In this document: positions 5,139-24,761 of the stretch, piece by piece
Numbering within the stretch: the stretch's first letter is position 1
Layout: every line of letters starts with the position of its first letter
IMG/VR virus record: IMGVR_UViG_3300025325_000113
Coordinates: 1 to 28,330 of that record
Strand: one strand, 5' to 3'
From: a virus
Length of the DNA: 28,330 bases
Notes under the pieces: model-generated
Told to the model about the DNA's origin: nothing
Database searches by the model: none
The model's input: the letters and a program-made list of their open reading frames with translations, nothing else
Translations under genes and position numbers: made by a program

Positions 5139-5399
5139 GTGGCTGACCCTACAGGGAAGATAGCGGAGGTGACGTGGGAGGACTCCGTAGGGAGGCATGG
5201 CTGGAATGAGGATGTCATAGCGCTGCCGGTGAAAGAACCGATGACGAGTGTGGGTTATGTCCTACAGGATGACGAGGGTGGGATTGTTCTTCTCCAGGCA
5301 TACGACCATGACCCCAACTCCACGCGCCCTTACGGCTGCCAGGAAGCCATCCCCCGTTCGGCGATAAGAAAGGTTAGGCGCCTCCGTGGTAGTCGCTGA
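5139..5399 (+). CDS. Hypothetical protein upstream of TerL
   Basis: An 86-aa protein starts at GTG with AGGTGGAG about 11 bases upstream. It begins MADPTGKIAEVTWEDSVGRH, contains SVGYVLQDDEGGIVLLQAYD and ends in basic residues (RKVRRLRGSR). The strand-like pattern suggests a small beta-rich fold. It overlaps the TerL start by 14 bases, so it probably belongs to the same transcript. Its function is unknown. Confidence 0.65.
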   Translation: MADPTGKIAEVTWEDSVGRHGWNEDVIALPVKEPMTSVGYVLQDDEGGIVLLQAYDHDPNSTRPYGCQEAIPRSAIRKVRRLRGSR

Positions 5400-6702
5400 G
5401 CGCATCAAGCCCCTGGGCCTGATGAAGGGGGCCCAGACGGACTTCTATCTCTCGGAGAAGAGGTTCCCCGCCCTCATTGGGGGACGTGGAGCAGGCAAGA
5501 CGTGGGCGCTCTGCCTCAAGGCTTACAACCTCTGCCTGAAGTACCCCGGCATTCGGGGCGTACTTACAGAGCCGACGTTCGACATGATCCGCCGAAATCT
5601 AGTCCCGGTCTGGGAGAAGCAGTTCAAGGGCATAAACGGCTGGGGTTGGCGCATCTTCCATGACGGTGTGCCGTCCGAGATCGCCTTCGCCAATGCTTCG
5701 GTGATCGATTTGCGGCCGGCGACAGCCGACCAGGCGGGAAAGTTCGAGGGGCCGACCTATGGTTTCGGGGCGATGGATGAGATAAAGGAAGGGGACCAGT
5801 TTCCCGTTTTCATGGCGATGCTGCCATCCGTCCGCGCCCCCGAAACACCCCAGCAACTATTCGTGGCGACGACGCCGGAGCGCATCCGTCCTTGGATTAA
5901 GAGGATTTGGACGGAGAACGTCAGTCCCATAACGCGAGAGCCTTTGACTGCCGAGCACTACCCTAAGTTCCGCGCCGAGACAGACGACAACTATAACCTG
6001 GATAAAGAAACGAGGGCGATGTGGCATGAACTGTACGGCAACTCCCGCCTGGCTGACCAGATGCTGCGTGGGATGGACGTGGCCTTGGAGGGGATCGCCT
6101 TCGAGGACTTCACGGAGGCGCACATCGGTGAACCCCCTCCGGGGACGGTGTTCAAGCGCACCCTTGCGGGGCTGGACTTTGGCGCTACCTCCCCCACCTC
6201 CATGCACGAGATCAGACTCGATACTAATAGCGACGTGTGGATCACCCGCGAGTTCTACAAACGTAATATGACCGATTACGACTGGATCGCCGCCGCCGGT
6301 GAATGGAACATCCCCCTTGTAATCTGTGACCCTTCGCGGTCGGACAAAGAACTGGAAGACATGAGGCGGAAGTACTGCGTGAGAATCCAGCGCGCCCGCC
6401 CTCCGGCCAAACGGTTTGAGGAGAGAGTGCGGCTTCTCAGAACCCGCCTGGCCCCCGGCACGGACGGCCACATAAGGTTCCACATCTCCCGCAACTGCCC
6501 CAACGCCATCAGTGAGATACAGAACCTGGCCTTCGCTGAACTAAAGTTGGGGGAGTACCAAGTAGATAGATGGGAGCCGGGTTCCCTCGATCACGCCTTC
6601 GATGATATATGCTATGGTTTATCTGAGATTGACCTGCCGAGCTACGAGTATCACCCAACCGCTGTTTCATGGTTCGGACGGACAATGAGGGCAGGCGTAT
6701 GA
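5386..6702 (+). CDS. terL: Terminase large subunit
   Basis: This 438-aa protein is the ATP-driven DNA packaging motor and headful or cos nuclease, which docks on the portal. The ATPase half has Walker A GGRGAGKT at residues 32-39, a Walker B-type FGAMDE at about 127-132 and a coupling motif VATTP at 160-164. The nuclease half has an acidic residue in LAGLDFG (D264), VICDPS (D315) and DHAFDD (402-407), the usual three-acid arrangement of RNase H-like terminase nucleases. Length and motif order fit a complete enzyme. The GTG start at 5386 overlaps the previous gene and has a weak ribosome binding site; ATG at 5422 is an alternative. The stop overlaps the portal start as ATGA. Confidence 0.95.
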   Translation: MVVAERIKPLGLMKGAQTDFYLSEKRFPALIGGRGAGKTWALCLKAYNLCLKYPGIRGVLTEPTFDMIRRNLVPVWEKQFKGINGWGWRIFHDGVPSEIAFANASVIDLRPATADQAGKFEGPTYGFGAMDEIKEGDQFPVFMAMLPSVRAPETPQQLFVATTPERIRPWIKRIWTENVSPITREPLTAEHYPKFRAETDDNYNLDKETRAMWHELYGNSRLADQMLRGMDVALEGIAFEDFTEAHIGEPPPGTVFKRTLAGLDFGATSPTSMHEIRLDTNSDVWITREFYKRNMTDYDWIAAAGEWNIPLVICDPSRSDKELEDMRRKYCVRIQRARPPAKRFEERVRLLRTRLAPGTDGHIRFHISRNCPNAISEIQNLAFAELKLGEYQVDRWEPGSLDHAFDDICYGLSEIDLPSYEYHPTAVSWFGRTMRAGV

Positions 6703-8549
6703 CAGAGCCCGACGCTACCGAAATCAAGGCGTATTACGATCGCCAGAAGACCCGTGGCAGTCAGCCCCAACTCGACTCCTGGATGCTGGACATGTACCTC
6801 CAGGAGAACCTCATCTCCGCCCGCCCGCCGGACAAGGCGGGGACGCGGGTGGAGCGGGTCAAGGCTGGTCTCGCGGGCCTCACCGTGGACCAGGACACCA
6901 ACGTCCTCTCCGGCGAGAAGCGCGCCCACGTTACATCCAGGGGGAACGATGAGCACGCCGAGAAGCTGGAGGCGTTTATCGACGGCTCGATGCACGTTAT
7001 GGAGGAAGAAGACCCCGTGACCGATCCCGCCACTCAGGACTTAAGGATTTTCGGTCGCTGCGCCTCCCTCGGCCCTGTCCAAGACCCCAAACTCTGGGGC
7101 GACGAGGAGCTGAAGAAACTCGTAGACGAGATGAATGAGGCCGGGGACGCCGAGACCTACAAGGAAAAAGACAAGGCGGTGGAGGCGTTCAAGCGTGACA
7201 ACTTCCCGATAGTCTGGCAGCATATCCCCGCCGACTCATTCTTCCCTACGTTTAAGAGGGGAAGAGAGCTGAGCAAGTGCGTCTGGGTCAAGAAGATGTA
7301 CCGTGACGACGTGGAGGCGGAGTTCGGGGAAATCCTGGACGCCAGGGATAAGAAAACTGAAGAGATTGAGGTCCTGGAGTACGCCGACGAGTATGTCCTC
7401 AAGACGGTGCTCAACACCTCCACGCCGAAAGAGGTGAGAAGATGGGAGCACGGCATGAGGGTCGGTGGGAAACGGGTCGTGCCGGTCGCCTTTGAGGAGG
7501 TGGACAGGCTCCCCGCCAACAACAAGGGTTGGGTCTGGAAGGGGGCGCTGTTTCACGTCCGGGGCGGGTTGGAGGCGATAGACGAGACCCTGACCGACAT
7601 CTTCACCAACATCCACGAGCACACAACAACAGGGACATTCACCAAACTCAATCCTGCTCTCAGGACAGGTGTAGACGGCTGGCCGAGGGAGGTCAGGGTC
7701 GGGGCGGGCATCAACACCGAACTCCTCATCAATGAAGACATAGGCCGCGTCCCCGTCCCTCAGATAACCGAGCAGACATTCTCATTCCTGGCCTTGATGA
7801 AGGGTCTGGTGGATCAGGTAGCGACCAACCGCCCGGCCCTCCAGGGCACCGGCCCCTCCGGGCAATCGGCGGTCAACCTGGCCACCTCAAACGCCATCGG
7901 TAAGGCGGAGTTAAAACGCTCGCACAGAGCGTTGAACCGCTGGCTCACCAAGTCCGCGCGGCTGGCCTTCGCCTCCGTCGTCGCTCTCAACAAGAGCTTC
8001 CCCGATATCCCCGACAAGGTGACAGTCCGATCCGCTACCAGACGATTAGAAGAGCGCTCAAAAGAGATAGCGGTAACGCCCGCCGACGTAAAGGACTACT
8101 TCCACCTCGTCACGGTAACTGTCAGCCTGAACCTTCCCGTGAACCAAGGCGCCGATGCCCAGACAGCCTCTGTGCTAGTCCAGGCGGGACTAGCGGACGA
8201 ACTCACGGCGAGAGAGCTAATCCTGAACTGGGAAAACCCAATGGAGGTAGAGGAGAGACGGGCGAAGATTAAACTCATGCGAAGCACCGTCGCCGTTCTG
8301 AATGCTATACAGCTTCAGAGAATGACCGCATCGGCGCAGGCGGGCACGATCCCAGTTGCGGAACTAATCCAAAAGTCCTTCTCCATTACTCAGGCTGCTC
8401 AGCAAGCCCTGGTGATGGCACTGGAAGAGGATGGAGAGGACATTTCGGCTTTCACTGGCGTTCCCTCACCAGGCCGGTCATTGAACAATCAGGCCGAAGC
8501 GGGTAGGGTATCACAGATGTCGGAGCTTCAAGGAATGGGGCTGCAGTGA
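6699..8549 (+). CDS. Portal protein
   Basis: This 616-aa protein forms the ring at one capsid vertex, through which TerL pumps DNA and to which the tail attaches. The start at 6699 is chosen for the ATGA overlap with TerL and the GAGGG site. The position immediately after TerL, the length and the region RPALQGTGPSGQSAVNLATS (about residues 377-396) are typical of phage portals. So is the C-terminal ELILNWENPMEVEERRAKIKL helix. The N-terminal third is acidic and helical. The last codons overlap the next gene as GTGA. Confidence 0.88.
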   Translation: MTEPDATEIKAYYDRQKTRGSQPQLDSWMLDMYLQENLISARPPDKAGTRVERVKAGLAGLTVDQDTNVLSGEKRAHVTSRGNDEHAEKLEAFIDGSMHVMEEEDPVTDPATQDLRIFGRCASLGPVQDPKLWGDEELKKLVDEMNEAGDAETYKEKDKAVEAFKRDNFPIVWQHIPADSFFPTFKRGRELSKCVWVKKMYRDDVEAEFGEILDARDKKTEEIEVLEYADEYVLKTVLNTSTPKEVRRWEHGMRVGGKRVVPVAFEEVDRLPANNKGWVWKGALFHVRGGLEAIDETLTDIFTNIHEHTTTGTFTKLNPALRTGVDGWPREVRVGAGINTELLINEDIGRVPVPQITEQTFSFLALMKGLVDQVATNRPALQGTGPSGQSAVNLATSNAIGKAELKRSHRALNRWLTKSARLAFASVVALNKSFPDIPDKVTVRSATRRLEERSKEIAVTPADVKDYFHLVTVTVSLNLPVNQGADAQTASVLVQAGLADELTARELILNWENPMEVEERRAKIKLMRSTVAVLNAIQLQRMTASAQAGTIPVAELIQKSFSITQAAQQALVMALEEDGEDISAFTGVPSPGRSLNNQAEAGRVSQMSELQGMGLQ

Positions 8550-8848
8550 CGAAAGAAGATAAGTTTGTCGTCAGCCTAGAACGCGCAGGCCGGGCCGCGT
8601 TCGAGTTCGGGGAGCGCTATCTCAAGAAGATGACGGAGATGATGGACCGCGAACTAGGCTCCACTAAAGTTGATCCCGGCACCGAACTTCTTGACTACGC
8701 TAGAGTCCGCCATGACCCCGATATGCTCCGGCAGGCGTTCCTGGAGCCCCTGCGGGCGAGGCTGGGCAAGGGTAAGGGGAATGAAGCATTCGTGAAGTAC
8801 GTCCAGGACATGGAGGCGAAGCTGTTCGCTACGGACGGGACAGAATAA
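8546..8848 (+). CDS. Portal-linked small hypothetical
   Basis: A 100-aa, mostly helical protein starts at a GTG that overlaps the portal stop (GTGA), so it is translated by coupling. It begins MTKEDKFVVSLERAGRAAFE and ends VKYVQDMEAKLFATDGTE. It could be a small head-assembly or portal accessory protein by position only. It ends six bases before the stop of a convergent gene on the minus strand. Confidence 0.7.
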   Translation: MTKEDKFVVSLERAGRAAFEFGERYLKKMTEMMDRELGSTKVDPGTELLDYARVRHDPDMLRQAFLEPLRARLGKGKGNEAFVKYVQDMEAKLFATDGTE

Positions 8849-8854
8849 GGGCTA

Positions 8855-9157
8855 CTAATGACACCGCGTCGTTGCGAACCCGCCGAACAACTCGGTTGTC
8901 GTGCAGGAAAAGGTATTATCGATGACTGAACCCTCCGCTCCCTGCGCCCCAGGGAAACCTCGCGGACCGATAGGCCCCGCCGAGCCCTGTATTCCCCGTA
9001 TACCTTGCGGCCCCGCCGGGCCGGTTGCGCCGATAGCGCCCTCCTCGCCCGCCGGGCCAGGCTCAACTAGCCACTCGTTGACGGCAACCGCCATCCCGAA
9101 CTGGCTGAGTAGAATCACCAGAACGGTGACGGGAATCCAGAGCTTTTTAAGCGACAT
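8855..9157 (-). CDS. Membrane-anchored collagen-like protein
   Basis: A 100-aa protein starts [20 protein letters not shown], a lysine-positive end followed by a hydrophobic stretch that would act as a signal peptide or signal anchor. Residues 34-76 are 14 uninterrupted Gly-X-Y triplets ([19 protein letters not shown]...). This is the collagen signature that drives trimeric triple helices in bacterial and phage proteins. The C-terminus has two cysteines (C85, C99) that could form disulfides outside the cytoplasm. The start at 9155-9157 is chosen because GGAGGG lies eight bases upstream; an in-frame ATG at 9196 lies inside the next gene. Most phage collagen repeats are in tail fibres. The export signal here instead suggests the host envelope. 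Confidence 0.82.
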
Positions 9158-9158
9158 C

Positions 9159-9524
9159 TCATTTCCCTCCATGCCGCTCGTAGACCCTTGCGGCATCCGT
9201 GCAGCAGAAGCATGGGCCTTTGCCCGTAAGGGCGCGGCCTCGGTGGTAGCGTTCGTACAGCGCGTCGGCGTTGGCCTGGCCCTTCACATCCATAACCGCT
9301 GCGGCCTGAATGACGCCTTTGCGAAGCAGGCTAACCATATAGCCAAATGGCTTCTGGACAGCATAGCCATTCGCCATCTCGTCCTGAACTTGCGCCAGCG
9401 CAGCCCGAACCAGCGGCGCCCCGTATTCGTCCACGATGGGGGCCACGGTATCGGTGCGGATTCCCCAACAAACGGCAACCTCCATAATCGCCGCGTCAAC
9501 TTCAACCTCAGCGTCATACGGCAT
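9159..9524 (-). CDS. Hypothetical protein, possible replication-type helical domain
   Basis: The 121-aa protein starts [20 protein letters not shown]. Residues about 20-75 are helical and include [17 protein letters not shown]. The pattern P-x-GY-hydrophobic-LLRKG recalls the end of small DnaD or replication-initiator-like helical domains, but the match is loose. The C-terminus has CFCC. The chosen ATG has AGATAGGA upstream, resembling the leaders of the left-arm genes; a GTG at 9551 is the alternative. The stop lies one base from the collagen gene start, so the two form an operon. Confidence 0.65.
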
Positions 9525-9558
9525 TTCGTAATGTCCTATCTTCGCCCCCACCCCTCCC

Positions 9559-9586
9559 GGTACTGGTACTGTTCAGTTCCAGTTCC
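9559..9586. repeat. Dyad of doubled hexamers
   Basis: GGTACT occurs twice in tandem, and AGTTCC occurs twice in tandem four bases later. The two halves are reverse complements with two mismatches in 13 positions and a TT centre. It lies 35 bases upstream of the leftward cassette, where it could be an operator for a dimeric regulator or a structure in the leader RNA. Confidence 0.55.
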
Positions 9587-9705
9587 AGATATGCTACGAA
9601 GTAGCTTCCATCGGTGCGCCCGCCTGCGCGTGCGCGGGTTCCTCTTTCCACTCGTTATCCCCAGTTTAAGGATGCGCCTGACCGCCCCCTGGGACGAGGC
9701 AAGAT

Positions 9706-9734
9706 TTGACATATTGAGCCGTAGCGACGATAAT
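9706..9734 (+). promoter_or_regulatory. Rightward sigma70-like promoter
   Basis: A consensus TTGACA (9706-9711) is followed after exactly 17 bases by GATAAT (9729-9734, five of six matches). The expected start of transcription is near 9741. This places the dyads at 9751 and 9784 in the 5' leader of the large virion-protein gene. It is one of the best promoter matches in the window. Confidence 0.75.
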
Positions 9735-9750
9735 GGTGACGAGTCGTCAA

Positions 9751-9770
9751 GGGCAGGGTACACCTTGCCC
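9751..9770. promoter_or_regulatory. Imperfect palindrome just after promoter
   Basis: GGGCAGGGTACACCTTGCCC matches its own reverse complement at 16 of 20 positions. It starts about 10 bases after the predicted transcription start. It shares CAGGGTA with the perfect palindrome at 9784-9807, so both could be sites for one repressor. Confidence 0.5.
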
Positions 9771-9783
9771 GGTCGCCTTGTCA

Positions 9784-9807
9784 ATACCCTGTCTCCCGAC
9801 AGGGTAT
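9784..9807. promoter_or_regulatory. Perfect 10-bp inverted repeat
   Basis: ATACCCTGTC and GACAGGGTAT flank TCCC. The arms are perfectly complementary. It ends 22 bases before the ATG at 9830 and contains the first two bases of an upstream in-frame ATG at 9806. No T-tract follows on either strand, so it is more likely an operator or leader RNA hairpin than a terminator. Confidence 0.7.
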
Positions 9808-9829
9808 GCGGCTATCTGGGGGCTATCTG

Positions 9830-12800
9830 ATGGCCCGCCGCTATAGCCCCTTCCGCTGGCAGGCCCCCATGTCCCGCCTGCGGTTTTCTCAACTGCGCCT
9901 TCAGTCCGAAGCTCAGCGGTCGAAGGACCTGGACGAGCTGGAGGCGTTCTCTCGTACCCCCTCACCGTTCGCTGGGCCATCGCCACGAGAGCCGCTCGAC
10001 ATCTTGGCTAAGCGCACAGGACTAATCTCACAGGAGGGCGGCCTGCGGGTCGAAGTTCCCAGAATCGGGGCTCGTCCAGGTGGGCCCTATATGGGAACGG
10101 ACATTCTGGGGCCTGATGTGCCACGCCGCCACATCTTTGGGCAGGAGGCGCAAGCGTTCGCGGAAGAAGTCGCCCCGCGTGAGCACCGGAAATACCCCAT
10201 CCCTGAGAGCGTTGCGGAGCGGTTCGGTGTTCCTGGGCGCATAGCCCGCGAAGTGACGGCCGTAGACCCAACAACATTCATGCTCGCGCCGCTGTTTGGC
10301 CCCTCCGTCTTCCGTGGGGCTGCCGCTGGAGCCCGACAAGCCCCAACAGCGGCACAGCTTGCAGGCACAGCTCTAACCAGCGTGGGCGCGGATATTCCTG
10401 TCGCGGCGGGGCAGATTGGCCGTGCTGGGCTTCGGGCCGTAAGAAGCGAGATCGGCGGCGTGGCCCCTGAGCTGGCCGCCCGGCGCACCGCTCTCTTCCA
10501 GGAATCGCGGGCTCTGGAGATTCGTGCCCAGGACTTGACTAATGAGCGCTTCGGCTTCGGCACGTCGCTGGACGACGCCGCCCGCCGTGACCCTGAGATT
10601 GGCGGCATGGTGGACAGGGCGACCCAGGTGCGGAACGAGATAGCCGCCCTGGGCACCGAAGGCGGGGGCAGAGCGCCACGCAAGCCCGCGCCGGAGGGGG
10701 CGCTCTTAACTAACGATGTGCCTAGCGGCCCAGCGATTCAGAAGCGGCTCCGCGAGGTTGAAAAGAGTCTGGCGAAGCCTCGTCCCGGCAACCGCAAAGC
10801 CCTCATTACGGAGCGCGCTCAACTCCAAGCGCAGGCTGAAATCGATGCTGTTACTGGGTCCGGCAGACCACTCACTGACCAACTAGACGAGATTAACGCC
10901 GAACTCGCAGCGGTGCAGAATGAATCGAGGACTCGCAGCCTACCATTTCGTGGTCGTAGAACATATCGTGGGTTCGTGCCCTCTAAAGGGATAGAGGGCG
11001 GAGTGCGTCGTGGCGGGACGTTTGCAGAGCCGCCGAACGCCTACCCCGACTTGACGACCGCTGAATTAGTGGCACGCGAGAAAGTTTACCGTGAGTTCAG
11101 CGACAGTGCGAGACTTGAGCCTGTAGAGGTCGTTGCCCGTGAAGTTCCCTCCGAGGGCGGGGCCGTTCCTCCTGTGGGGCGACCTCCTTCCGGCCCCGCC
11201 CTCCCTCCTGAGCCGCCTGTTCCGCCGCGAGAACCGCCGGAAGGATTCGCCGCCAACATCCGGTTGAGCAAATATCCCGAAGAGATTCGCGCAGCCCTCC
11301 AGGAGTGGGTTGACGCTAACCCAGAGGCTGTGCAGGCAGCGAGACGCGGGGTGCGTTCCGATGCGCAAGTTATGGAAGATGCCCGGCTTCTTGTTGAGGA
11401 ACAGGGCGGTAATTTCTCCAAACTCCAACGCCGTTGGAAGCCTGGCGAGGCATGGAACGCCGAGGAAATCGCGGCCATTCGGGGAACCCTACGAAGCAAG
11501 ACCGAGGCTGTGCTGGAAGCCGCTAATGCGGCCCGCGCCGTAGATTCAACGGAGAACCATGCCCGGCTGATTTTAGCCATGCGGGAGCAGGCGCAAGTCC
11601 AGCAGGCCGTTCATGGCGTCACGGCTGAAGCAGGAAGAGCGTTGCGGTCCTTCCGGCAGGAAGCCTTCGATGCCATTGCGTCCAACGATACCCAAAAACT
11701 ACAGGAACTTATGCGGCGGATGGGGCTTGATAAAGGGAAGCTCGACGCTTTCGCTGACCGCATATCCAGCCTTGACCTGAACAACCCAGTGGAGGTCAAC
11801 AACTTCTTGCGTAGCGTGGATAAGCCGAAGTTCGGTGACTACGTTATGGAGTTCTGGATCAACAGCATCCTTTCAGGGCCAAAAACGCACATCATCAACT
11901 CAATCTCTAACACGCTCTTCGCAGCGATGTCGCCGGTAGAACGCGGCTTGGCGGCAATAGTTGATGTGCCGCTGGCGCGGCTTCAGGGGCGAGCCGGGCA
12001 ACGGTTCCTTCGGGAAGTCCCCGCTGATGCCGCTGGCGCACTATTTGGTATCCCTGAAGGCGTCAGGGCGGGGCTCAGGACGCTCAGGGACGGCATTACG
12101 CCAGCCCAAGCCTCCAAGTGGGAGTTTCGCCGCACGGCCTTTCCTGGTGTCGCTGGGCGTGTCATCCGTCTGCCTGGGACACTACTGGAGGCGGCGGACT
12201 CATTTTTCTACGCAATCAACTATCGGGCAGCGCTCAATAGTGGGATTATCCGGCAGGCCCGATCCGAGGGCTTACGCGGCGCGAAACTTGTAGAGCGCAT
12301 CGCCGATCTGAAGATGAATCCGGCGGCTGATCTGATCTCTAGGGCTGCCGGGACTGCCGAATACAGGCTTTTCCGCGCTGAGCCAGGCAAGATTATGCGT
12401 GGGTTCATGTCCTTGCGCGAGACTATTCCTGGCGGACGTTTCGTCCTACCCTTCCTTCGGACTCCAGGCAATCTGTTGGCCGCCGGCTTGGAGCGCTCAC
12501 CATTAGGACTGGCGAATCCGTCTCTATGGCGCAACCTGGCGACCAAGAGTCCAGAAGCGTCCGACCAGATAGCGCGCCTACTGTTGGGATCAGGCATTGC
12601 CGCCGGCTTGGGCACGATGATTGCCAGCGGAACCCTAGAAATCACGGGGAACGTTCCGACAAACGCAGCCGCGCGTGACCGCTTCTTCCGCGAGGGCAAG
12701 CAACCCTTCGCCATCAAGATTGGCGGTCAATGGATTCAGTATAGAAGGTTAGAGCCATTTAACCAGTCGCTCGCGCAACTAGCGGCATTCAAGGATGCGG

Positions 12801-13456
12801 TGGATGCGGGAGACGCTAAAAACGCTAATCAGATAGCGGCGCAACTTATCACGACTATCGGCAACAACCTCGTCAGTCAGACCTACCTTTCGGGCCTAAG
12901 CGATTTTCTAGACGCCATCTCGGACCCGGCGCAGGCTGGCGCCCGGTGGGGAGAACGGATAGCTACAGGCTTTGTGCCCGCTAGCGCAGCGCTACGGACA
13001 GTCGCCCAGGTGACCGACCCGACCGTCCGTCGGCCAGAGGGCTTGCTGGAGCAATTCCAGGCGGGCATTCCTATCCTCTCAGAGGAAGTCCCACCACGAC
13101 TGACAGCATTCGGTCGGCCAGCAACGAGGGAGACTGCGCCCTGGTCGCCAATTACGGTGACACCTGAAAAACAAAGCTTTGTCGATGCCGAACTGGAGCG
13201 CCTGGGCGTTGAGGTCGGTTTCGTCGGGGATTCGATTGGGGGCTATGCGCTCAACCGTGAGGAGCAATCTCGCTACCAAGAGTTAGCCGGGCAGGTCGCG
13301 GAACTTGTGCTTACCGACTTAGTTCAGTCAGCGGCGTACCAGTCGTTAAGCGACCCGGACAAAGAGACAGCTATCCGACGGGCTACCGACCGAAGCCGTG
13401 ACGCAGTTCGGGAGTTCCTGATTGAGGAAGCGACACAGAAAGCAGGGGTGCGATGA
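9830..13456 (+). CDS. Giant internal/ejection-type virion protein
   Basis: The start at 9830 (MARRYSPFRWQAPMSRLRFS) is preferred because GGGGGC lies seven bases upstream; an in-frame ATG at 9806 lies inside a hairpin. The product is 1208 aa. The N-terminal 300 residues are Arg/Ala/Pro-rich. A proline-rich linker lies at about 442-472. A helical centre contains AMREQAQVQQAVHGVTAEAGRA. Two motifs, NSILSGPKTHIINSISN (about 678-694) and VLPFLRTPGNLL (about 871-882), are the kind seen in very large phage internal or polyvalent proteins that are packaged in the head and injected with DNA. I cannot see a catalytic motif. It sits between the portal and the scaffold and couples to the next gene by ATGA. 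Confidence 0.7.
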   Translation: MARRYSPFRWQAPMSRLRFSQLRLQSEAQRSKDLDELEAFSRTPSPFAGPSPREPLDILAKRTGLISQEGGLRVEVPRIGARPGGPYMGTDILGPDVPRRHIFGQEAQAFAEEVAPREHRKYPIPESVAERFGVPGRIAREVTAVDPTTFMLAPLFGPSVFRGAAAGARQAPTAAQLAGTALTSVGADIPVAAGQIGRAGLRAVRSEIGGVAPELAARRTALFQESRALEIRAQDLTNERFGFGTSLDDAARRDPEIGGMVDRATQVRNEIAALGTEGGGRAPRKPAPEGALLTNDVPSGPAIQKRLREVEKSLAKPRPGNRKALITERAQLQAQAEIDAVTGSGRPLTDQLDEINAELAAVQNESRTRSLPFRGRRTYRGFVPSKGIEGGVRRGGTFAEPPNAYPDLTTAELVAREKVYREFSDSARLEPVEVVAREVPSEGGAVPPVGRPPSGPALPPEPPVPPREPPEGFAANIRLSKYPEEIRAALQEWVDANPEAVQAARRGVRSDAQVMEDARLLVEEQGGNFSKLQRRWKPGEAWNAEEIAAIRGTLRSKTEAVLEAANAARAVDSTENHARLILAMREQAQVQQAVHGVTAEAGRALRSFRQEAFDAIASNDTQKLQELMRRMGLDKGKLDAFADRISSLDLNNPVEVNNFLRSVDKPKFGDYVMEFWINSILSGPKTHIINSISNTLFAAMSPVERGLAAIVDVPLARLQGRAGQRFLREVPADAAGALFGIPEGVRAGLRTLRDGITPAQASKWEFRRTAFPGVAGRVIRLPGTLLEAADSFFYAINYRAALNSGIIRQARSEGLRGAKLVERIADLKMNPAADLISRAAGTAEYRLFRAEPGKIMRGFMSLRETIPGGRFVLPFLRTPGNLLAAGLERSPLGLANPSLWRNLATKSPEASDQIARLLLGSGIAAGLGTMIASGTLEITGNVPTNAAARDRFFREGKQPFAIKIGGQWIQYRRLEPFNQSLAQLAAFKDAVDAGDAKNANQIAAQLITTIGNNLVSQTYLSGLSDFLDAISDPAQAGARWGERIATGFVPASAALRTVAQVTDPTVRRPEGLLEQFQAGIPILSEEVPPRLTAFGRPATRETAPWSPITVTPEKQSFVDAELERLGVEVGFVGDSIGGYALNREEQSRYQELAGQVAELVLTDLVQSAAYQSLSDPDKETAIRRATDRSRDAVREFLIEEATQKAGVR

Positions 13457-15495: not shown

Positions 15496-15519
15496 CTGCC
15501 AAAAGGAAATACGCTACGT

Positions 15520-15556
15520 GGCCCTCGTGCCCGACCTGGCACGAGGGCCTTTCTTT
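15520..15556 (+). terminator. Intrinsic terminator or attenuator
   Basis: GGCCCTCGTGCC and GGCACGAGGGCC form a perfect 12-bp stem with the six-base loop CGACCT, followed at once by TTTCTTT. This is a textbook rho-independent terminator on the plus strand. It ends the transcript of the ejection-type block and lies just before the scaffold gene. Because a TATAAT sits 25 bases upstream of the stem, it may also act as an attenuator or make a short RNA of about 55 bases. Confidence 0.9.
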
Positions 15557-15568
15557 AAGGAAGGACAC

Positions 15569-16423
15569 ATGAGCGACACCGAGGTTCTGAATCCGGCCAC
15601 TCCGCAGGAGACGGCTGCGCCGGAAGGCCCGTTTAGCCAAACGGCCCAACCGCCCCAGCCGGAGGCTGTCCCAGCCGAAACTGCGCAGGAAGTCGCCTCA
15701 GACAAGTGGTGGCCAGGCGTTGAGTCCGAGGATGACATTCTCGCCCATGAGCGGATTGCTCCGAGGCTTGAAGAGAGGGAACAGCAGGGCTATAGCCGTG
15801 GCGTCCTTGACGGTAAGGTGAGCGCCCTAGAGGTTCTCGATGCCCGCAGCAACACCGTCACTCAGGCGCAGAACGTGGCGTCCGCCATCATTGGCAGGTT
15901 GAACAAGGCTGCCCGCGATGGGAACTTGGACTCAGACGCTATCGACAACTTGCTTACCGATCACACCCAGTCATTGACCGCTCTCAACCGCATCATCGGG
16001 GACGAGTTGAGGGATGAGGGGCGCGTCGAAGGGTACAGAGAGTTCGTCCGCTCGGTCGCTGGGCACCTCTCCGACACTCAGTTGGAGACGGAGTTCACCA
16101 ACCGTATCGCCCTTGCGCTCAGGGGGGTGAAGGACGACAGGTTGGTATCCGATTTCGTGACCCGCATCACCCAGAAGGCGGAGAAAAGCGCTCACGATAA
16201 GGGCTTTGAGGAGGGCAAGAAGGCGGGGGAGAAGGCCGTCACCGAAAGGGTGAAGGCCGAGTCCCGCGCCGGCGAGGGGCCGCACACCGCGCCTGGGACT
16301 GGGGGCAGTAGCAGCATCACGAGAGCGGAGGACTTGGATAAAATCTCCACTGCCGAATGGCTAGCGATGCCGCAAGAGCAGCGGGACCGTTTGTTGCAAG
16401 AGGCGAAGAGGGTCAGCCGCTAG
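15569..16423 (+). CDS. Putative scaffolding protein
   Basis: The 284-aa protein starts at the ATG at 15569, which has AAGGAAGGA three bases upstream; a longer in-frame GTG start at 15518 would read through the terminator stem and is rejected. The N-terminus is Pro/Glu/Ala-rich and acidic. The centre is helical and charged. The C-terminus has a Lys/Glu-rich coiled coil (DKGFEEGKKAGEKAVTERVK) and ends STAEWLAMPQEQRDRLLQE. The acidic disordered start, helical body and position just before the capsid gene fit an assembly scaffold that is removed from the mature head. Confidence 0.72.
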   Translation: MSDTEVLNPATPQETAAPEGPFSQTAQPPQPEAVPAETAQEVASDKWWPGVESEDDILAHERIAPRLEEREQQGYSRGVLDGKVSALEVLDARSNTVTQAQNVASAIIGRLNKAARDGNLDSDAIDNLLTDHTQSLTALNRIIGDELRDEGRVEGYREFVRSVAGHLSDTQLETEFTNRIALALRGVKDDRLVSDFVTRITQKAEKSAHDKGFEEGKKAGEKAVTERVKAESRAGEGPHTAPGTGGSSSITRAEDLDKISTAEWLAMPQEQRDRLLQEAKRVSR

Positions 16424-19128: not shown

Positions 19129-19911
19129 ATGCCTGCTACGGATTTTCTACCACGGAAGCTCTATAACGCCTTCTCGCGGGCAGGCTTCCCAAGCGAACCG
19201 ATAAAGGGGTTGCTGGCCCTCCTGGGCAATCCTGAGTACGTCGCCTTCTGGGATGACCACTTGGGAACCCGATCCGGCACGTGGCCGGCGGGTACACCCT
19301 ACGCATCCACCGTCGGCACAGGCACGGAGGTCATCGGCCTCACGCAAGCGGTGGGGGGCACGATGACCCTCACCACTGGTAACGCTGGTAGCGATTCAGC
19401 GGGTCAAGGGCTTGGCCTCAACTGGTCAGGCGACCGTGGCTTCTACTTCATTGCCCGCTTAAAGATCGACCGCATTACCGACAGCAAGTTCGAGATCGGC
19501 ATGACGGATGCCGTTAATGACGATGGCGCTGTTGCGGTTAAGGCGACGCCGACCTTTACCGCTACCGACTGTGGCCTCTTTGTCTTCGACAGAACCGACG
19601 ACGCCGAAGTCACCTTCGTTTCCAACGGTGGCACGACGGACGCTAATGCGGACGCCACGGACTTCGATATCGTCGCCGACACCTACTTCGTTGTGGAGAT
19701 TGTCTGTAAGGGGGCTACGGATACGACTGGTGACAACATCGCCGGTTACATCAACGGTCAGCTCATCGGCTCAGGGAACATCGATGGGGCCAACCCTCTG
19801 ACGATCTGGGCATACGTCGAAGACCTCGCGACCAGCACCGCCACCATTCTTACCGTCGATTACTGGGGCTGCGTTGGCCCCCGTGTCGCTCAGTGGGGCG
19901 TGGGGAGCTAA
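19129..19911 (+). CDS. Lectin-like structural protein
   Basis: The 260-aa protein has a strong AAGGAGGT site. After a short N-terminal helix (LPRKLYNAFSRAGFPSEPIK), it becomes Thr/Gly/Asp-rich and strand-rich (GFYFIARLKIDRITDSKFEI, DTYFVVEIVCKG, NIAGYINGQLIGSG). This is the pattern of a concanavalin-like jelly-roll lectin domain. Such domains occur on capsid decoration and tail proteins that bind sugars. Position after the capsid operon favours a decoration or head-fibre role, which is inferred. Confidence 0.6.
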   Translation: MPATDFLPRKLYNAFSRAGFPSEPIKGLLALLGNPEYVAFWDDHLGTRSGTWPAGTPYASTVGTGTEVIGLTQAVGGTMTLTTGNAGSDSAGQGLGLNWSGDRGFYFIARLKIDRITDSKFEIGMTDAVNDDGAVAVKATPTFTATDCGLFVFDRTDDAEVTFVSNGGTTDANADATDFDIVADTYFVVEIVCKGATDTTGDNIAGYINGQLIGSGNIDGANPLTIWAYVEDLATSTATILTVDYWGCVGPRVAQWGVGS

Positions 19912-19943
19912 CGCTCACAGCTAAAGCAAAGGAGAAAGCAAAC

Positions 19944-20582
19944 ATGGCAACTCTCGATGTAGCACAAAGAAGTTCGGCTGACAGGGGCATTACGAATCTC
20001 GCACAGGCGCTTCTCACCCTCGACGCCTCTGGCGCTCTCGTTGTGATCGACTTCTTCGCAAAGGCGATCTTGGACGATCATGGCTACCAGGTTCGGGCAG
20101 GCACGATCTCGGTGCCACTGGTTGGCGATGTGTTGATCACAGACACGGCGGCTGAGTTCTGCGCCGACGTAGCAGCGGGCCTTGTGCTCATACCTGTCGC
20201 TCAGCACATCTCAATCAACCTTGCGGGCGGCACGGCACACGAGTACGCGACCAAGAGCGTCGCTACGGTTTCAAGCGCGGGGACGGCTTTCGTCCCTCTA
20301 CCCTTGAATTCGGGTGGTCCGGCAGCGGCGTCAACAGCGCGTGTAGCCGCCGCTGGTGGAGTCACGGTGACGGCTGAGTTGGCGACTACGACCGTGTTTC
20401 ACTGGGGAGTTGGGCGGAGCGCCGCTGATTTGGCCGTCGATGGAGACTGGCAGCCCTTGCGCCCGCCAGTGTTGAACGGTCCACGCTGCCTTTACACGCA
20501 GATTGCTGCGGCTACGACAGGCCCTTCCTACTTTGCCCACCTTGACTACTTGGAGTTTGTGTCAGCGCAACTGGGTCAGTAA
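19944..20582 (+). CDS. Virion protein, tandem paralogue 1
   Basis: The 212-aa protein starts MATLDVAQRSSADRGITNLA with AAAGGAGA upstream. It is a paralogue of the next gene. They share GYQVRAGTI, PLVGDVLIT, TAAEFC, the run KSVATVSSAGTAF and the C-terminal GPRCLYTQIAAA...GPSY. Length and strand-rich composition suggest a decoration or tail-surface protein. No known family was assigned. Confidence 0.65.
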   Translation: MATLDVAQRSSADRGITNLAQALLTLDASGALVVIDFFAKAILDDHGYQVRAGTISVPLVGDVLITDTAAEFCADVAAGLVLIPVAQHISINLAGGTAHEYATKSVATVSSAGTAFVPLPLNSGGPAAASTARVAAAGGVTVTAELATTTVFHWGVGRSAADLAVDGDWQPLRPPVLNGPRCLYTQIAAATTGPSYFAHLDYLEFVSAQLGQ

Positions 20583-20611: not shown

Positions 20612-21274
20612 ATGCCACTAATGCAGGTCTTCAGAGGTCTGGGGGCTGGGTTCGGCAACAACGCTACGCCGCCAGCCTATCTCAATACTATGGCTCAGCA
20701 GGTCGTGATGCAGTGGTATCAGGCCATGATTCTCGATGGCCGGGGCTTTCAGGTCCGGGCTGGCACGATCACCACACCGTTGGTCGGTGACGTGGCGATC
20801 ACGAACACCGCAGCCGAGTTCTGTGTCGATGCTGCGTCAGGGACGACGATTATGCCAGTAGCGCAGATCATCTCTATCCGCCTCTCAACGGGTACATTAC
20901 ATGAGTACGCGAGCAAGAGCGTTGCCACAGTCTCAAGCGCAGGGACAGCATTCACGCCCCTGCCCCTCAAGTCAGATGGGTCGGCGGCTGTATCAACGGC
21001 CCGCGTTCAGGCTGCTGGTGCCGTGACGGTAACGACCGAGGCGGCGACTACGACATTGCGCCACTGGTCCTGGGCAAACCCAGCAGCGGGCTTTACGGGC
21101 GCTCTTCCAGGCGATCAGCATCAGGAATGGTACCCAGCAGCGAACAACGGCTCGCCTGTTCTCGTGGGGCCTCGGTGTCTTTACACCCAGATCGCCGCTG
21201 CCGGCACAGGGCCGAGTTACTACGCTAACCTGGACTATCTGGAGATACCAACACTGATGGTTAATCCGTCCTAG
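20612..21274 (+). CDS. Virion protein, tandem paralogue 2
   Basis: The 220-aa protein starts MPLMQVFRGLGAGFGNNATP with AAAGGAGAACGCAAATG, a leader close to that of its paralogue. It shares GFQVRAGTI, PLVGDVAIT, SVATVSSAGTAF and GPRCLYTQIAAA with the gene at 19944, but has a different N-terminus and a short insertion (SWANPAAGFTGALPGDQHQE). A tandem duplication followed by divergence is the simplest reading. Confidence 0.65.
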   Translation: MPLMQVFRGLGAGFGNNATPPAYLNTMAQQVVMQWYQAMILDGRGFQVRAGTITTPLVGDVAITNTAAEFCVDAASGTTIMPVAQIISIRLSTGTLHEYASKSVATVSSAGTAFTPLPLKSDGSAAVSTARVQAAGAVTVTTEAATTTLRHWSWANPAAGFTGALPGDQHQEWYPAANNGSPVLVGPRCLYTQIAAAGTGPSYYANLDYLEIPTLMVNPS

Positions 21275-24250: not shown

Positions 24251-24259
24251 TGGTACAAT
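24251..24259 (+). promoter_or_regulatory. Weak extended -10 promoter candidate
   Basis: TGGTACAAT resembles an extended -10. A second TACAAT follows at 24269-24274. No good -35 is seen. It sits just before the HNH gene and could give that gene its own weak transcript. The evidence is thin. Confidence 0.3.
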
Positions 24260-24332
24260 GGTCATAGTTACAATAGATAGGGGCCGCGTCCATGCAGACC
24301 GGCCCCGCGACACCAGGAAGGGTTGGTTCCCG

Positions 24333-24761
24333 ATGTTCTCCAAGTTTACCACGGCACTTCCCCTCCGGTTCTGGCACAAGGTCCGCGCTCTTGAGAATGG
24401 CTGCTGGAAGTGGACAGCTGGTCAGCGAGCTGGATATGGCCGATTCCGACTTTATGGCCGCAGTGGCCCTTTAGTTCAGGCTCATCGTTTCGCCTATGAA
24501 CACCTGATTGGCCCTATTCCTGCTGGCCTCCAATCCGATCATCTCTGCCGCAACCGCGCTTGTGTGAATCCGGCACATCTTGAGCCTGTGACTCCGCGCG
24601 AGAATGTTCTGCGAGGCGATGGCCTCGCCGCGAGGGAAGCCCGCAAGACTCATTGTCCCAAAGGCCATTCTTACGATGCAGCGAACACCTACCATTATTT
24701 CAATAAGCGTTACTGTCGCACTTGTTATCGGGAACGCCCACGGCCTAAATCACGACTGTGA
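24333..24761 (+). CDS. HNH homing-type endonuclease
   Basis: The start at 24333 (MFSKFTTALPLRFWHKVRAL) is preferred because AGGAAGGG precedes it and the family usually begins a few residues before this RFWxKV; ATG at 24258 would add 25 unrelated residues. The 142-aa protein has GCWKWTAGQRAGYGRF, then AHRFAYEHLIGPIPAGLQ. The HNH core DHLCRNRACVNPAHLEPVT follows, with D/H and Asn/His active-site candidates. A C-terminal HCPKGH and YCRTCYRE zinc knuckle completes it. Free-standing HNH genes of this type are mobile elements in phage genomes. It appears intact, and its stop overlaps the next gene as GTGA. Confidence 0.88.
   Translation: MFSKFTTALPLRFWHKVRALENGCWKWTAGQRAGYGRFRLYGRSGPLVQAHRFAYEHLIGPIPAGLQSDHLCRNRACVNPAHLEPVTPRENVLRGDGLAAREARKTHCPKGHSYDAANTYHYFNKRYCRTCYRERPRPKSRL

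Follow-up and report, generated by a model that had tools for sequence, protein, structure and literature searches.

An antisense cassette encoding a predicted membrane-anchored mini-collagen and a replication-module protein within the structural gene block of an unclassified short-tailed phage

The window (the whole stretch of DNA that was analysed) comes from an unclassified short-tailed phage and corresponds to a linear IMG/VR virus record 28,330 bases long. Plus-strand genes occupy its right three quarters, and minus-strand genes lie at its left end. The plus-strand genes follow the order TerL (phrog_2 match, E 1e-24), a gene with a weak portal call (PHROG E 0.013), a 100-aa gene, a 1,208-aa gp16-like gene, the major capsid gene and tail-type genes. 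The initial annotation had placed two minus-strand genes at positions 8855-9524, between portal and ejection-type genes. Both genes, hereafter P0001 and P0002, are present at this place, and the ejection-type flank is borne out by a plus-strand gene at 9830-13456 whose product resembles T7 gp16/internal virion protein D (the ORF is also open from an ATG at 9806); the portal-type flank comes down to the weak call mentioned above. The immediate left border is the 100-aa plus-strand gene at 8546-8848.

Several features elsewhere in the window deserve mention. A type II hammerhead ribozyme (Rfam RF02276), which scores 53.9 bits where 37 would suffice (E 1e-8), lies on the minus strand at 1830-1906 (match 1843-1906), in the gap between the minus-strand genes 1905-2375 and 1239-1829. 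A 48-aa minus-strand ORF at 735-881, overlapping the end of 878-1207, contains one strong membrane helix (hydropathy 2.69), which gives the minus-strand set another small membrane protein besides P0001. Two proteins of the tail block (19893-20582 and 20612-21274) look like diverged duplicates, sharing VPLVGDVLITDTAAEFC / TPLVGDVAITNTAAEFC and HEYA.KSVATVSSAGTAF. The most palindromic 28-mer of the window (24/28; GCCCTCGTGCCCGACCTGGCACGAGGGC) is found at 15521-15548, at the start of ORF 15518-16423; either it acts as a terminator, perhaps, or the start assigned to this ORF may be too early.

Within the cassette, P0002 is read on the minus strand from an ATG at 9524 to a stop at 9159 (121 residues), with an in-frame GTG at 9551 as a possible alternative start, and P0001 from an ATG at 9157 to a stop at 8855 (100 aa). 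The TGA of P0002 and the ATG of P0001 are one base apart, a GGAGG Shine-Dalgarno sequence stands eight bases 5' of the P0001 ATG, and 6 bases separate the stop of P0001 from that of the convergent plus-strand gene 8546-8848. A long plus-strand ORF opposite the cassette (8901-9830) was considered as a real gene and rejected: its codon usage is poorer, and the frames antisense to P0002, which form part of it, contain stops in the homologue of P0002 described below.

P0001 starts with MSLKK, followed by a hydrophobic stretch, the sequence NEWLVEP, a collagen region at residues 34-78 and a tail with two cysteines, C85 and C99, the C-terminal pair that had been noticed at the outset. Of the collagen region, 14 regular Gly-X-Y triplets had been counted; these are confirmed, and a GSV adds one more, so that 15 triplets are consecutive. 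In 100,000 residue shuffles of P0001 the number of triplets never exceeded 8, and the Pfam Collagen model gives 34.9 bits, above its cut-off of 27.2, which makes P0001 a member of this family. Proline occupies X in five triplets and Y in one; with 15 unhydroxylated, proline-poor triplets, the trimer may need help to stay together. Codon usage alone, of the coding type only in this frame, supports the minus-strand coding of P0001.

The export signal that the initial annotation assigned to P0001 corresponds to a hydrophobic membrane helix at the N-terminus, seen by hydropathy (a stretch of 20 residues; best 19-residue value 2.25) and by AlphaFold; it may be either an uncleaved anchor or a cleaved signal, a possible signal peptidase site being located after AVA. 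In the single-sequence AlphaFold model, which is of low overall confidence (mean pLDDT 61), residues 4-29 form a helix at pLDDT 82-91. Hydropathy and this helix suggest that P0001 is a cytoplasmic-membrane protein. The two lysines before the hydrophobic stretch and the glutamates after it suggest a probable N-in, C-out orientation. The model further contains strands at 85-90 and 94-99, which pair in a hairpin that puts C85 against C99 and would let these cysteines face one another. For the collagen part the model gives no structure, as expected for a single chain; if fully folded, the triple helix is computed to be about 12.9 nm long. Insertion by Sec, trimer formation and disulfide closure are presumed.

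No homologue of P0001 with the same termini was found in the viral sequences searched, bacterial genomes, plasmids or deposited phages, the searches of the last three being weakened by the BLAST low-complexity filter and by exact-peptide seeds. A relationship to tail fibres was considered and rejected, since the ten viral hits all come from larger ORFs, most of them of fibre type, whose likeness to P0001 is confined to the triplets. Against the family models of the bacterial collagens Lcl, SclA and SclB, P0001 scores 28-36 bits, far below the cut-offs of 325-500; it matches no PADLOC defence family and no similarity to known exclusion proteins was found.

Exported collagens are uncommon in the loci examined, but not unique to this one. 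In 1.17 Mb of loci that had been fetched for other reasons, 31 collagen ORFs have at least seven triplets, and in not one of them does a membrane helix precede these. A scan for early-starting collagens (beginning about 25-35 codons after the start) gave a hydrophobic stretch before the collagen in 6 of the 185 ORFs among the matches listed, which are a sample; about half of the six are unconvincing. Among these matches, three look exported: a 185-aa protein of contig L216 with an anchor, 31 triplets and two late cysteines, the nearest in plan to P0001; a 219-aa protein with signal and collagen (L196/L226); and a 222-aa lipoprotein (L103). All share with P0001 an export signal and collagen in a phage-classed contig, but they show no similarity to it outside the triplets, have other neighbours, and none is paired with P0002. 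The sequences thus indicate that exported phage collagens exist, are uncommon in the matches listed and appear unrelated to P0001 in sequence. In L216, the collagen gene (5373-5930, minus strand) overlaps a holin-like 80-aa membrane gene; it comes after that gene, at the end of an apparent late operon, a position suggesting that this collagen is used late or at lysis.

In contrast to P0001, P0002 has a relative, encoded at 10022-10399 of a 20,575-base IMG/VR contig (L002, also L013). The two proteins are 87-88% identical, 58 of the 79 DNA changes fall at third codon positions, and dN/dS is 0.06 (dN 0.083, dS 1.38); P0002 is under strong purifying selection, as far as this one pair of sequences tells. 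The clustering of changes at third positions, together with codon usage, supports its coding on the minus strand. No other carrier of P0002 was found in IMG/VR besides this contig, and no relative in phages and plasmids; an HMM search of 18,015 ORFs from the loci fetched gave no match, nor did the PDB by sequence, and the fold search yielded no usable match. HTH families gave no hit. The model of P0002 (confidence 62) is all-helical and, in the 130-aa reading, may include a helix-turn-helix at residues 20-43; P0002 is probably a small helical, DNA-acting protein. The evidence on P0002 comes from one homologue.

The DNA homology between the contig and the window covers about 440 bp, comprising P0002 and a short element upstream of it; it starts directly after a TAG in the contig and runs to the end of P0002, and no other homology was found beyond either end. 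In the contig, P0002 is preceded by a replication-initiator N-terminal domain (phrog_2447, E 4e-28), whose nearest counterparts occur in Gordonia, Arthrobacter and Streptomyces phages, and is followed by RusA; a RecT-like gene lies upstream. P0002 thus has neighbours of replication type in another phage, which supports the moron-like layout of the cassette in the window. No match to P0001 or to collagen was found in this 20.6-kb record, which may be a fragment. The initiator domain, a single TAG, the element and P0002 share a reading frame and add up to 298 codons, about the length of the profile (295 positions). Region 9503-10399 has the look of a replication initiator that an in-frame TAG has cut in two at the domain linker; the origin-like palindrome comes directly after this stop. 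This arrangement suggests that P0002 began as, or replaced, the C-terminal part of the initiator, for which profile comparison gives no confirmation: P0002 has no profile similarity to six full-length initiators, including their C-domain, nor to phrog_2447, which matches only the preceding ORF of the contig, and no match to the SPP1 gp39 helicase loader (PF11417) at E <= 10. The window and the contig share two kinds of possibly mobile gene, since an HNH_3 endonuclease gene inside the tail block of the window (24258-24761, plus strand) has similar HNH genes in the contig at about 3.6-4.7 kb.

The element upstream of P0002 (9559-9609, minus strand) is 51 nt long and reads GGAAGCTACTTCGTAGCATATCTGGAACTGGWACTGAACAGTWCCAGTACC in both genomes, with 49 of 51 positions identical as against 79% across the P0002 gene. 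It consists of a GCTAC-TTC-GTAGC inverted repeat and the palindrome GGWACTGGWACTG-AA-CAGTWCCAGTACC, holds a few palindromic GGWACTG repeats without a long iteron array, and is among the three most palindromic 28-mers of the window, being operator- or origin-like in appearance. No second copy was found in either genome, and no carrier in IMG/VR other than the contig described above. In the window the element has no strongly AT-rich stretch next to it, whereas its counterpart in the contig lies in the most AT-rich stretch of that locus. The copies differ at two positions, which mirror one another and are mismatched in either copy (A-A to T-T). A conserved RNA hairpin was considered for the element and rejected, the mirrored differences being better suited to a DNA site and the fold z-score being only -2.

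Further upstream, two divergent promoter-like sites were identified. The weaker one, TTGACA-18-TACCCT on the minus strand at 9784-9755 (9/12), is a candidate promoter for the cassette, and the other, TTGACA-17-GATAAT on the plus strand at 9706-9734 (11/12, with 0.6 sites expected by chance in the 1.6 kb scanned), a candidate for restarting the late genes after it; their use as promoters is suggested by sequence. If the cassette is an inserted unit, the late block is predicted to restart after the antisense insert, and the plus-strand site fits this prediction.

The moron-like layout put forward by the initial annotation is upheld by the opposite strand, the coupled gene pair, the divergent promoter-like sites and the replication-type setting of P0002 in the L002 contig. 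As expected of a foreign inserted unit, the cassette is antisense to its surroundings, and in the other contig its element and P0002 are part of the replication module; as regards a promoter of its own, a moron trait, there is the weak minus-strand site, and no terminator was found after P0001. Searches by TerL, portal and TerL profile returned no close relative of the phage above about 29% identity. Since the element and P0002 are met among quite different neighbours in the two phages, we read the cassette as an inserted unit composed of a control-or-origin element, a replication-module gene and an exported mini-collagen. We hold this anatomy of the 8855-9800 segment, insertion and export included, to be highly probable.

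The side of the envelope reached by the collagen depends on the host. The ejection gene is nearest to those of podoviruses of Pelagibacter, Roseobacter, Synechococcus and Desulfovibrio, and the major capsid protein matches cyanopodoviruses of the Pf-WMP3 kind; these matches, at 21-27% identity, point weakly to a diderm host. The host may also be actinobacterial, the group to which the initiator of the L002 contig points for its own phage. With a diderm host assumed, P0001 would face the periplasm and not the cell surface; the surface stalk and the adhesive role originally proposed are conjectural.

We propose that a moron was inserted at 8855-9800, as a transcription unit of the minus strand complete in itself, which would carry the palindromic control- or origin-like element, P0002 and P0001. 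P0001 would reside in the cytoplasmic membrane with its N-terminus inside, and a mini-collagen of about 13 nm, capped by a disulfide-closable hairpin, would extend on the far side. Standing outside virion assembly, the exported rod would act in the envelope of the infected cell and hinder DNA entry by a second phage; anchored at the cytoplasmic membrane, it could interfere with assembly of the conduit. Obstruction of DNA is favoured because single inner-membrane phage proteins such as SieA act in this way. In line with this proposal, the gene beside the cassette encodes an ejection-type protein, though neighbourhood is weak evidence for a target; against it stand the weak minus-strand promoter, the missing match of P0001 to defence families and known exclusion proteins, the doubtful stability of so short a trimer and the exported collagen of L216 with its late or lysis-time context. 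No integrase was seen within the 28 kb of the window, which is a fragment, and a lysogenic phase is conjectural. The anatomy is real and the function of P0001 is a guess: the exclusion role, an envelope block to incoming phage DNA, is drawn from analogy and is at best a tentative assignment, and the explanation as a whole, an inserted moron with an envelope exclusion role, has in our estimation somewhat less than an even chance of being correct.

The segment could instead be mainly a second replication site, with palindromes that bind the initiator, P0002 as an accessory protein (possibly the detached C-terminal part of the initiator) and the collagen as a hitch-hiker. The single-frame succession of initiator domain, stop, element and P0002 in the contig, the AT-richness of the element there, and the example of phage SPP1, whose initiator gene contains one origin and whose late block has a second one next to morons (PMC6316719), all favour this reading, but the few palindromic repeats, the lack of an adjoining AT-rich stretch in the window and the failure of P0002 to match initiators, the SPP1 helicase loader family or any fold weigh against it, and we consider it unlikely. 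A doubtful reading of similar standing takes P0002 for a small autoregulatory DNA-binding protein that has the palindrome as its operator and regulates the collagen, the moron then being independent of replication. The position of the palindrome directly upstream of P0002, its conservation above that of the gene, its single occurrence in each genome and the possible helix-turn-helix agree with such a role; P0002 hits no HTH family, however, the confidence of its model is 62, and the element of the contig can be read in frame behind the initiator domain, so that its conservation could reflect coding history. Both readings of the element, as replication origin and as operator, are compatible with an envelope role for P0001.

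The remaining alternatives concern P0001 itself. Its topology, an N-terminal membrane helix with the rod outside, resembles that of an inner-membrane spanin, and it might act in the envelope during lysis, as a spanin-like or holin-associated protein with a triple helix that crosses part of the envelope; in Desulfovibrio phage ProddE a putative spanin is encoded next to the ejection genes, and the anchored collagen of L216 follows a holin-like gene. However, no lipobox ORF that could encode a spanin partner was found at or beside 8855-9524, whether overlapping P0001 or next to it, the gene is antisense to the late block, and the scans of window proteins turned up no endolysin, all of which makes this role improbable. 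That P0001 is an ordinary virion collagen, a fibre or capsid decoration encoded on the other strand, would agree with most PHROG collagen families being virion proteins and with SPP1 gp12 being a capsid protein, but is quite improbable for a 100-aa protein of the opposite strand that has an N-terminal membrane helix, lacks fibre or capsid-binding domains and shares with its larger, mostly fibre-type hits nothing beyond triplets. A non-functional leftover or spurious ORF, which the missing homologue with the same termini might suggest, is very improbable in view of the 15 regular triplets, the strong Shine-Dalgarno sequence, the coupled start and the frame-specific codon usage.

If the proposed moron with an envelope role is correct, triple helices of phages also serve as envelope devices in the infected cell, and P0001 would represent a non-virion use, the phage collagens met in our searches being nearly all virion fibres or capsid decoration. 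Independently of that role, the shared 51-nt element and P0002 provide a clean case of a replication-type module in a structural block. As a speculative extension, possible in our view but unlikely, phage morons of this kind may form a class: their exported mini-collagen (membrane helix, triple-helical rod, disulfide hairpin), active in the host envelope during infection, would be controlled from, or sit on, a mobile origin- or operator-like element that came from a replication module.

The interruption of the late block has, by analogy, a precedent in SPP1, where it is broken by oriR and three morons bracketed by transcription signals (PMC6316719). Common to the SPP1 segment (genes 8-10) and the cassette is a conserved late order broken by a replication-type element and small genes; SPP1 differs in that transcription is from one strand and the segment is not antisense, no collagen is described in genes 8-10, and the element of the window is a candidate origin. 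For the putative exclusion function, the comparison is with SieA of P22, an inner-membrane prophage protein that blocks injection of P22 DNA via the ejection proteins (PMC10883804). SieA is a phage-encoded cytoplasmic-membrane protein, as P0001 is predicted to be, and the target in P22 is the ejection conduit; P0001, however, is a single-helix collagen with no similarity found to SieA, and its exclusion activity is putative. SPP1 gp12 and the tail-fibre collagens likewise carry collagen triplets in a phage protein, but they are virion proteins without a membrane anchor, whereas P0001 has a predicted anchor and a predicted cysteine hairpin, is 100 aa long and is encoded antisense. The bacterial surface collagens Lcl, SclA and SclB resemble P0001 in the triplet region, with no match outside it.
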